42,601 nt of DNA, from assembly GCA_945862465.1 (NCBI GenBank), contig CAMAYO010000015.1, positions 1 through 42,601 of the forward strand. Direction: 5' to 3'. Each line of letters begins with the position of its first letter. The first letter of the stretch is position 1. Shown here one piece after another: positions 7,733-37,498 of the stretch. Below the pieces are notes generated by a model, which saw only the letters and a list, made by a program, of their open reading frames with translations, made no database searches and was not told the DNA's origin. The stretch is from Pseudorhodobacter antarcticus. Lineage in GTDB: Bacteria > Pseudomonadota > Alphaproteobacteria > Rhodobacterales > Rhodobacteraceae. The position numbers and the translations under genes were made by a program.

Positions 7733-7761
7733 CTTTTCTTTCGCGCGATCCTGCTTATAGT
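7733..7761 (+). promoter_or_regulatory. Candidate promoter of the leuA leader transcript
   Basis: The -10 TATAGT (7756-7761) is one mismatch from TATAAT. CTTTTC at 7733-7738 lies 17 bases upstream and matches four of six positions of the alphaproteobacterial CTTGAC. A start 6-9 bases after the -10 falls at about 7768-7770, on or next to the ATG of the leucine-rich leader ORF. The leader mRNA would then be leaderless or nearly so, which fits the absence of a Shine-Dalgarno in front of that ATG. Confidence 0.6.
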
Positions 7762-7769
7762 CCGCTTTC

Positions 7770-7868
7770 ATGACCAAGGATATGATCTCAACTGGCATTT
7801 CGCACGGGGCTTTCCCCGTGTTGTCGCTTGTCCTGCCCTTGGGTCTGCTACGTCTTAGCCGCCTCTGA
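7770..7868 (+). CDS. leuL: Leucine-rich leader peptide of leuA (attenuator ORF)
   Basis: A 32-codon ORF from ATG 7770 to TGA 7866-7868. Its last 16 residues, VLSLVLPLGLLRLSRL, hold eight leucines, encoded by TTG, CTT, CTG, TTG, CTG, CTA, CTT and CTC. Such leucine-codon runs upstream of leuA are the hallmark of ribosome-mediated attenuation: ribosome speed over the Leu codons reports charged tRNA-Leu. CTA and CTT look like slow codons in this GC-rich genome. The ORF sits 88 bases upstream of leuA, which makes 2-isopropylmalate, the first step of leucine synthesis. No Shine-Dalgarno precedes the ATG; the promoter position suggests leaderless translation. The gene symbol is by analogy with leuL of enteric bacteria. 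Confidence 0.82.
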   Translation: MTKDMISTGISHGAFPVLSLVLPLGLLRLSRL

Positions 7869-7898
7869 GCGTGCCCCAAGGGTGCGACCGCTCAGAGG
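7803..7898 (+). promoter_or_regulatory. leuA attenuator region with competing RNA pairings
   Basis: Three pairings are visible. CACGGGG (7803-7809) with CCCCGTG (7814-7820) makes a tight hairpin inside the leader ORF. CCTCTGAGCG (7862-7871) with CGCTCAGAGG (7889-7898) makes a perfect 10-bp stem that contains the leader stop codon. CCCTTGGG (7836-7843, in the Leu codons) is fully complementary to CCCAAGGG (7875-7882), which lies in the loop of that stem. The last two pairings are therefore either mutually exclusive or form a pseudoknot. No T-run follows the 10-bp stem, so control may be by Rho or by translation rather than by an intrinsic terminator. Pairings are seen; the switch is inference. 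Confidence 0.65.
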
Positions 7899-7956
7899 TG
7901 ACAGCGCCCAACCATCCGGCACAGCCGCTAAGAACACCGACCAAGGATAGCATCAG

Positions 7957-9528
7957 ATGACCCAAAAGACCGCCCAACCCCGCGTCTTGATTTTCGACAC
8001 TACGCTGCGCGACGGGGAACAATCCCCCGGTGCCACCATGACCCATGATGAAAAGCTGGAAATCGCAGGCCTCTTGGATGAAATGGGCGTGGATATCATC
8101 GAGGCGGGCTTTCCCATCGCTTCAGAAGGTGACTTTGCCGCTGTCAGCGCCATCGCCAAGCGGGCCAAGAATTCTACGGTCTGCGGGCTGGCACGGGCCA
8201 ATTTCAAAGATATCGACCGCTGCTGGGAAGCGGTGAAACATGCCCGTTCGCCGCGCATTCACACATTTATCGGCACCTCGCCCCTGCACCGCGCCATTCC
8301 AAATCTGGACATGGACCAGATGGCCGAACGCATCCACGAAACTGTGACCCATGCGCGCAACCTGTGCGACAATGTGCAGTGGTCGCCCATGGACGCCACG
8401 CGCACCGAACATGATTACCTGTGCCGCACGGTGGAAATCGCCATCAAGGCAGGCGCCACCACGATCAACATTCCCGACACGGTGGGCTACACCTACCCGT
8501 TCGAATCCGCCAAACTGATTGCCATGCTTCTGGAACGCGTGCCGGGCGCTGATAAAGTCACTTTCGCCACCCATTGCCACAACGACCTTGGCATGGCCAC
8601 AGCCAATGCTTTGGCCGCAGTGGAAGCAGGTGCGCGGCAAATTGAATGCACCATCAACGGCTTGGGCGAACGGGCGGGCAACACGGCCTTGGAAGAGGTG
8701 GTTATGGCGATGCGTGTGCGCAACGACATTCTGCCCTATCAAACGGGCATCGACACCTCCAAGATCATGAACCTGTCGCGGCGGGTTTCTTCAGTTTCGG
8801 GCTTTGCGGTGCAGTTCAACAAGGCCATCGTGGGCAAGAACGCCTTCCTGCACGAAAGCGGCATCCACCAAGACGGCGTGCTGAAGAACGTGCAGACCTT
8901 TGAGATTATGCGCCCCGAAGACATCGGTCTGACCGCCACGAACATCGCAATGGGCAAGCATTCGGGCCGTGCGGCGCTGCGCTCGAAGCTGAAAGAGCTG
9001 GGGTTTGATCTGGCGGACAATCAACTCAACGACGTCTTTGTGCGCTTTAAAGCCTTGGCCGATCGCAAGAAAGAGGTCTACGACGAAGACCTGATCGCCC
9101 TTGTCGCCGATGAGGCCACCAGCGACGACAACACCCACCTTCAAGTCAAACGGCTGCGCGTGGTTTGCGGCACCGAAGGCCCCCGCGAGGCAGAGTTGAC
9201 GCTGATGATTGGCGGGGTTGAAACCTCCACCGATGCAACGGGCGATGGGCCGGTAGATGCGGCGTTTAATGCCGTCAATATGCTTTATTCCCACCACGCC
9301 AAGTTGCAACTCTATCAGGTGCATGCCGTGACCGAAGGGACAGACGCGCAGGCGACAGTTTCGGTGCGGCTGGAAGAAGACGGGCGGATCGCCACGGGCA
9401 CCTCGGCCGATACCGACACGGTTGTGGCCAGCGTGAAAGCCTATGTCCACGCGCTGAACCGGCTGATCCAGCGCCGTCAAAAATCAGCGCCAGATTCAGA
9501 TGTGAAGACGATCAGCTACAAGCAGTAA
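7957..9528 (+). CDS. leuA: 2-isopropylmalate synthase
   Basis: Condenses acetyl-CoA with 2-ketoisovalerate, the committed step of leucine synthesis, and is normally feedback-inhibited by leucine. The 523 residues match the LeuA type 1 length. The N-terminal TIM barrel carries LRDGEQSPG (R18, D19) and the metal-binding H206-x-H208 in THCHNDLG, with GLGERAGN soon after. The C-terminal quarter, after about residue 400, is the leucine-binding regulatory domain. The ATG at 7957 follows AAGGA at nine bases. Control by a leader peptide is strongly suggested by the upstream region. A strong hairpin terminator follows the gene. Confidence 0.97.
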   Translation: MTQKTAQPRVLIFDTTLRDGEQSPGATMTHDEKLEIAGLLDEMGVDIIEAGFPIASEGDFAAVSAIAKRAKNSTVCGLARANFKDIDRCWEAVKHARSPRIHTFIGTSPLHRAIPNLDMDQMAERIHETVTHARNLCDNVQWSPMDATRTEHDYLCRTVEIAIKAGATTINIPDTVGYTYPFESAKLIAMLLERVPGADKVTFATHCHNDLGMATANALAAVEAGARQIECTINGLGERAGNTALEEVVMAMRVRNDILPYQTGIDTSKIMNLSRRVSSVSGFAVQFNKAIVGKNAFLHESGIHQDGVLKNVQTFEIMRPEDIGLTATNIAMGKHSGRAALRSKLKELGFDLADNQLNDVFVRFKALADRKKEVYDEDLIALVADEATSDDNTHLQVKRLRVVCGTEGPREAELTLMIGGVETSTDATGDGPVDAAFNAVNMLYSHHAKLQLYQVHAVTEGTDAQATVSVRLEEDGRIATGTSADTDTVVASVKAYVHALNRLIQRRQKSAPDSDVKTISYKQ

Positions 9529-37342: not shown

Positions 37343-37364
37343 TCCAGCGCCGGGGATGTTCCCG

Positions 37365-37489
37365 GTATTCTCAGGGCGGGGTGCAATTCCCCACCGGCGG
37401 TATAGCCCGCGAGCGCCTTTGGCAACGAAGGGTCAGCAGATCCGGTGTAACTCCGGGGCCGACGGTATAGTCCGGATGAAAGAGAATGC
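37365..37489 (+). ncRNA. FMN riboswitch (RFN element)
   Basis: The conserved RFN blocks are all present in order: TTCTCAGGGCGGGGTG, the CCCCACCGGCGGT arm, AGCCCGCGAGCG, GGTCAGCAGATCCGGTG, CTCCGGGGCCGACGGT, AGTCCGGATGAAAGAGAA. The P1 stem ATTCTC (37367-37372) pairs with GAGAAT (37482-37487). FMN binding normally lowers expression of riboflavin synthesis or uptake genes. Here the next gene is an EamA transporter, matching RibN. A terminator hairpin with six Ts follows, so control is probably by transcription termination. Confidence 0.96.
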
Positions 37490-37498
37490 GCAATTTGC

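Follow-up and report, generated by a model that had tools for sequence, protein, structure and literature searches.

A probable LEU-type leader upstream of leuA in Pseudorhodobacter antarcticus and a proposed switch of leuA translation by ribosomes stalled on leucine codons

How a short, leucine-rich open reading frame (ORF) may influence the expression of leuA is the question raised by a 42,601-nucleotide stretch of DNA from Pseudorhodobacter antarcticus, the whole of which is referred to here as the window. An earlier note, made from the sequence alone, had interpreted this ORF as a leucine version of leader-peptide attenuation on a leaderless transcript. Of that interpretation, the translated Leu leader, the signs of leaderless transcription and the conservation in relatives were upheld, while attenuation by an intrinsic terminator was not. 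Beyond what had been noted before, the 3′ part of the ORF was found to provide one strand of conserved RNA helices which terminate beside the leuA ribosome site. The coding features of the locus are as follows:

7770 to 7868, forward strand: leader ORF of 32 codons (ATG to TGA), encoding the peptide MTKDMISTGISHGAFPVLSLVLPLGLLRLSRL, probably on a leaderless mRNA.
7943 to 7947, forward strand: AAGGA, the Shine-Dalgarno sequence of leuA by inspection, with 9 nt between it and the start codon.
7957 to 9528, forward strand: leuA, encoding 2-isopropylmalate synthase of the TIGR00973 type (671.6 bits versus a cut-off of 598.7) and passing the NCBIfam leuA_bact cut-off.

A short-chain dehydrogenase gene (Pfam adh_short) diverges from the leuA region on the opposite strand, while an FMN riboswitch is located further along the window (37363 to 37491, forward strand; 121.5 bits). 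A second LeuA-like ORF is present in the same genome (G000:C5:53740-55311), its score of 231 bits to TIGR00973 falling below the cut-off.

A search for relatives of LeuA provided 80 loci, mostly from the Rhodobacterales and some from the Rhizobiales and Rhodospirillales, and leaders ending in ..LLLLSRL or variants thereof were identified upstream of most of these. Promoter and codon counts are based on 69 rows (68 loci, including L015 and L009, and the window). The tests of the pseudoknot and of the P0 duplex described below, comprising shuffles, permutations, masked columns, partner swaps and a tree, are based on 67 rows (66 loci and the window), from which L015, L022, L053, L066, L067, L072, L073 and L009 as well as the six Rhizobiales rows L074, L075 and L077 to L080 were left out. 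T-tracts and folding with a placed ribosome were assessed on 67 rows that include L009 and omit L034, the contig of which holds no leader start.

The presence of a 32-codon ORF before leuA, with eight Leu codons among its last 16, is as the earlier note had described it, and among the window's 1114 stop-to-stop frames with 20 codons or more, a single one ends with so many Leu codons. Across the 69 rows, Leu occupies codon -4 in all 69, codon -6 in 65, codon -5 in 62 (the window has Arg at this position) and codon -7 in 56, although these counts are biased by a leader finder which chose the stop by Leu content and P1 stem. The wobble pattern of the Leu codons is independent of those selection criteria: entropy within the Leu run amounts to 1.2 to 1.9 bits at the third codon position versus 0 to 0.81 at positions 1 and 2. 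Translation of the leader in the frame of the Leu run is supported by sequence comparison of this kind. A further feature of the leaders is a His-Ile dipeptide within codons 4 to 10, usually at codons 6 and 7; it is carried by 32 of 68 loci, compared with 0.86 on average after shuffling, and is mostly encoded as CATATC (27 of 32). As its third positions are almost invariant, it may act as a signal in the DNA or RNA and not through the peptide; the window leader carries GATATGATC (7770 to 7800) in its place.

The end of the leader ORF, its stop codon included, and the region between it and leuA contribute the strands of four pairings, all on the forward strand:

7853 to 7859, forward strand: 5′ strand of P0, UCUUAGC, running from the final base of codon -5 through Leu codon -4 and Ser codon -3.
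7862 to 7871, forward strand: 5′ arm of hairpin P1, CCUCUGAGCG, which includes the leader stop UGA (98.6% of cells paired).
7872 to 7875 with 7881 to 7884, forward strand: P2, an alternative pairing within the P1 loop (92.7% of cells paired).
7880 to 7885, forward strand: 5′ strand of the pseudoknot PK, GGGUGC, in the P1 loop, from comparison of loci.
7889 to 7898, forward strand: 3′ arm of P1, CGCUCAGAGG, without a U-tract behind it.
7904 to 7909, forward strand: 3′ strand of PK, GCGCCC, with variation at the middle pair.
7927 to 7933, forward strand: 3′ strand of P0, GCUAAGA, 23 nt upstream of the leuA ATG.

P1 consists of 10 pairs, the above frequency being that of 65 sequences, and 3 of the 10 have changed on both sides. 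Taken together, P1 and PK exceeded all 500 shuffles in cells paired, in cells changed on both sides and in covariation score, and exceeded all slid controls in cells paired; the number of doubly changed pairs, by contrast, was unexceptional (4 versus 2.9, with 113 of 500 shuffles as high). The 3′ half of the P1 loop pairs either with the 5′ half of the loop, forming P2, or with the strand behind P1, forming PK. For the latter, the figures relied on are those of a per-locus strand test over 67 loci and not those of the MAFFT alignment A2, in which the PK counts (79.9% of cells paired) are partly off register because GCGCGCC can be aligned in two ways. In this test, the middle pair of PK is C-G in 52 and U-A in 8 loci. 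Measured against its own shuffles over the 67 loci, PK surpasses 95% or more of them in 40, and the partner strand of the same locus outranks more than 90% of foreign partners in 17. The PK strands are mostly near-invariant, rendering a permutation on distinct strand pairs uninformative (92 of 114 versus 91.8).

P0, which connects the Leu codons to the region before the leuA start, is present together with P1 in the predicted minimum-energy fold of the window, the energy of which was matched by 3 of 200 shuffles. When each column of P0 was masked in turn over the 67 rows, with a register chosen without reference to either the column under test or the partner strand of the locus itself, the wobble base of codon -5 formed Watson-Crick pairs in 37 rows versus a permuted mean of 20.4, and that of codon -4 in 36 versus 24.0, neither value being reached in any of 5000 permutations. 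Position 2 of codon -3 displayed a weak excess (214 of 5000 permutations as high), and the other six columns no clear excess of pairing. With the register taken from the strands of other species, 418 of 603 cells pair (permuted mean, 381; standard deviation, 6.6; maximum, 407 in 2000 permutations). Where close relatives differ on the 5′ strand, their own partner pairs in 36 of 66 and 25 of 50 cells, and the swapped partner in 13 and 8, respectively. Relatedness is controlled only in part for this covariation, since co-changes counted on the branches of a LeuA tree are modestly above chance (7 versus 4.7 and 4 versus 1.9 expected). In individual loci, P0 surpasses at least 95% of plain shuffles in just 20 of 67, while in 32 the partner strand of the same locus outranks more than 90% of foreign partners. 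The 3′ strand of P0 in the window ends 9 nt upstream of the leuA Shine-Dalgarno sequence, and in the Rhodobacterales this base stem is mostly located upstream of that sequence. Elsewhere in the class, P0 was matched at p<=0.05 in 9 of 23 loci (L109, in which the core was not found, was set aside, and L082, L083, L085 and L086 were skipped), and in 7 of these 9 the 3′ strand contains a Shine-Dalgarno-like stretch 5 to 8 nt before the leuA start.

Conservation in relatives had been set beforehand as a test of the leader. A covariance model of the Rhodobacterales element (R1, built on 65 rows) matched 195 of 196 genomes of the order and all 88 genera, with one match in each, many of these genomes being probably close to sequences inside the model. 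Outside the model, 14 of 15 loci with upstream sequence matched at E<=0.0015, L066 being the exception; L067, for which upstream sequence was lacking and which was used only in this comparison, gave no match. Carriers include Rhodobacter and Paracoccus species (L003, L063, L009 and L016), and in the genome of P. antarcticus itself the window's copy alone reached E<=0.01. R1 matched 34 of 385 genomes of the class and a broader model, R2, 104 of the same 385, a lower bound as the strict filters used in large searches lose weak matches; in the phylum, R2 matched 71 of 398 genomes, 70 of them within the class and the outsider a partial match. Of 60 fetched loci, 59 (29 of 30, including the window copy, and 30 of 30) have a LeuA-encoding gene downstream in the same orientation, the sole exception being L108, itself a partial match, and the distance from match to LeuA is within 160 nt in 56 loci and approximately 375 to 390 nt in three.

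In L015, L022 and L053, the leader lies approximately 0.4 to 0.45 kb upstream of leuA, and in L015 a small Cupin_2 gene (1126 to 1479) occupies the interval. The gaps of about 0.4 kb in L022, L053, L082, L086 and L263 suggest that a gene of this kind intervenes there likewise, in which case the leader would control both it and leuA. No Rfam family was detected in the leader at gathering score, a single minus-strand match (E 5.8) being returned at E values up to 10, and a blastn search of plasmids yielded no match. A 16-base core was encountered in 110 stretches of viral contigs, none of which matched R1 at E<=0.01, so the short core alone is attributed to chance.

The anatomy described above is closest to that of the actinobacterial LEU element and not to that of the Sinorhizobium trp leader, which the earlier note had mentioned. 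As described by Seliverstov et al. (2005; PMC1262725), the LEU element combines a Leu leader with a pseudoknot and with a base stem in which Leu codons pair with the leuA Shine-Dalgarno sequence, its mechanism being given as unknown. The LEU element shares with the window a leader peptide with a Leu run, a pseudoknot with an alternative hairpin, a Leu-codon base stem, the absence of a named terminator and leuA downstream; the P1 pairs are not the same, and the base stem lies at the leuA Shine-Dalgarno sequence rather than upstream of it (PMC1262725). A LEU-type leader was recognized in five of eight fetched actinobacterial LeuA-family loci (L231 to L235), with P1 and a PK candidate in all five (in L234 by eye only) and a clear P0 opposite the leuA ribosome site in three (L231, L234 and L235). 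The stop codon, which is situated within P1 in the window, is behind the 5′ arm of P1 in the actinobacterial loci examined, and LeuA, among the two proteins typed per side, is of the TIGR00973 type in the window and L103 and of the TIGR00970 type in L231 and L234. Among seven actinobacterial loci, R1 and R2 each matched two, Nonomuraea (E 1e-4 and 5e-5, respectively) and Microbacterium (E 0.05 and 0.02). Homology with the actinobacterial leaders by sequence alone was rejected, as the match is lost once the Leu codons are omitted: R3, a model without them, found none of these leaders. In its arrangement the window element thus resembles the LEU element and may work like it, descent from the latter being a possibility. 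By reading, no such leader was found upstream of the Streptomyces plasmid leuA copies L236 and L237, and L119 was put aside as a probable paralog. No report of the element in Alphaproteobacteria was found among the literature matches listed, although Vitreschak 2004 and Lopatovskaya 2010 may mention such leaders.

With moderate confidence, we propose that the window harbors an alphaproteobacterial LEU-type leader in which stalling of the ribosome on Leu codons frees leuA translation from P0. Transcription would begin at the leader ATG or no more than one to two bases away from it, and a ribosome would translate the leader up to the UGA inside P1. When leucine is sufficient, this ribosome would complete the leader and depart. 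P1 would then form together with one of two alternatives, the P2 hairpin or the pseudoknot, and the Leu codons would be paired through P0 with the strand beside the leuA ribosome site, keeping leuA translation low. When charged leucyl-tRNA is scarce, the ribosome would stall on the Leu codons and cover the 5′ strand of P0, thereby allowing leuA to be translated. Comparison of loci supports P1, PK and P0 as well as the coding leader, its promoter spacing and its association with leuA; the stalling, the direction of the switch and the control of translation rather than of transcript length are inferred. Translational control appears the simplest reading in view of the missing terminator and of a P0 that pairs the sensor codons to the leuA start region. 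That confidence is no more than moderate reflects a folding test (nested folds only) which is weak and, in the window, contrary: placing a ribosome on the Leu codons raised the mean openness of the leuA start from 0.545 to 0.587 (higher in 31 and lower in 18 of 67 loci; p=0.025), but the start region of the window itself closed, from 0.53 to 0.40. The leaders from outside the Rhodobacterales (L087 to L111) have L-R-L at codons -6 to -4 in 13 of 23 cases, and their consequently fewer Leu codons are counted against the stalling model, as are the codon mutants of Streptomyces, cited in PMC1262725, which were at odds with attenuation. Their nucleotide core, CUUAG..GCCCCUGAGCG, is largely retained (L084, which is the window, and L108 were excluded from this comparison).

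A protein or small molecule which binds the P1/pseudoknot RNA and controls leuA, with the leader ORF being secondary, is an unlikely alternative. P1 and its loop are conserved in sequence beyond what pairing needs, the invariant columns including UGAG, and Seliverstov et al. (PMC1262725) preferred a protein factor for the actinobacterial element, the Streptomyces codon mutants cited there being at odds with attenuation. Against such a factor, the Leu codons keep their frame while their wobble bases vary, partly with compensation in P0. The candidate protein, ML1624, for which homologs at that strength are reported only in Actinobacteria (PMC1262725), cannot by itself explain an alphaproteobacterial element. 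Less probable still is Rho-dependent termination, whereby departure of the ribosome from the leader, when leucine is plentiful, would allow Rho to terminate transcription in the untranslated stretch before leuA; an absent intrinsic terminator and a translated leader are compatible with it, but the covariation of the Leu codons with the strand beside the leuA ribosome site is left unexplained.

The stalling model places the transcription start at the leader itself, and the promoter elements are located as follows:

7733 to 7738, forward strand: -35-like element CTTTTC, not TTGACA-like, with a 17-nt spacer to the -10 element.
7756 to 7761, forward strand: -10 element TATAGT, the commonest -10 in the leaders (26 of 68).

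The position of TATAGT, 8 nt ahead of the leader ATG, is as claimed earlier, and no Shine-Dalgarno-like 4-mer is present from -16 to -4 before that ATG. A simple sigma-70 scan of the window did not return the leader promoter among its predictions. Upstream of the -10 element, TTT[TC]C recurs in 50 of 68 leaders, 37 of which have the window's spacing (shuffled mean, 1.3; maximum, 7). With the -10 element picked blind to frame, 63 of 69 rows have an ATG at a distance of 3 to 13 nt behind it, invariably in the frame of the Leu run; in 56 of these rows the gap measures 7 to 8 nt (36 with 7 nt, 20 with 8 nt). Just 1 of 68 loci has a Shine-Dalgarno-like 4-mer ahead of the leader ATG, whereas leuA is preceded by one in 27 of 69. 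Spacing, frame and scarcity of Shine-Dalgarno sequences are indirect signs of the leaderless transcript which the earlier note had suggested, and the window leader is very probably of this kind. That the principal start site instead lies further upstream is improbable given the recurrent -35/-10/ATG geometry and the lack of a Shine-Dalgarno sequence before the leader ATG, although leaders of other alphaproteobacteria lend it some support: among 35 such loci, of which L240 and L264 yielded no core, leaderless spacing was not evident in the remaining 33 leaders, bar L109 and L110, in which -10-like hexamers precede an ATG and a GTG, respectively, and each of the 33 has an open frame of 38 codons or more ahead of the leader stop. 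By eye, a -10-like hexamer is located 6 to 10 nt before the leader ATG in four of the five actinobacterial leaders. According to PMC8079986, leuL1 of Streptomyces lividans, MRFGLLLLSCRGEGL, is leaderless, as the window leader probably is, and without a typical terminator; its GLLLLSC also occurs in the leaders of L023 and L074, while it belongs to another phylum and has residues after the Leu run which are missing from the alphaproteobacterial leaders. The Sinorhizobium trpL/peTrpL is likewise a leaderless leader-peptide ORF in an alphaproteobacterium, concerned with Trp and described in PMC10117765 as a tryptophan attenuator.

Classical transcription attenuation, in which P1 would be an intrinsic terminator and another helix the antiterminator, is most improbable. 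In its favor are the Leu leader, a stable hairpin, alternative pairings and, in 7 of 67 loci, five or more T within 8 nt somewhere between P1 and leuA. Such a tract lies directly behind P1 in only 1 of 67, however, the longest T run between P1 and leuA is 1 to 3 in 59 of 67, and the leader stop codon sits inside the P1 hairpin; an intrinsic terminator before leuA was rejected for lack of a U-tract. The attenuator of the enterobacterial leu operon also has a Leu-rich leader peptide before leuA, as does the window, and uses an intrinsic terminator, which the window lacks.

The mechanism of the LEU element was left open in 2005 by Seliverstov et al. (PMC1262725), and its alphaproteobacterial counterpart is present in almost every genome of one order and offers numerous natural variants with compensating changes. 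As the RNA duplex can be kept while the codons are changed, the ideas of peptide sensing and protein binding are separable, and a protein confined to Actinobacteria would seem unable to serve as the general factor. Tentatively, a single RNA design, in which the sensing codons are at the same time the blocking strand, may serve in two distant phyla as a translational leucine switch distinct from terminator attenuation; standing before two different LeuA families in these phyla, such a design would be either mobile or very old. For the cell, ribosomes reading Leu codons are probably the means by which the amount of the leuA enzyme is set.
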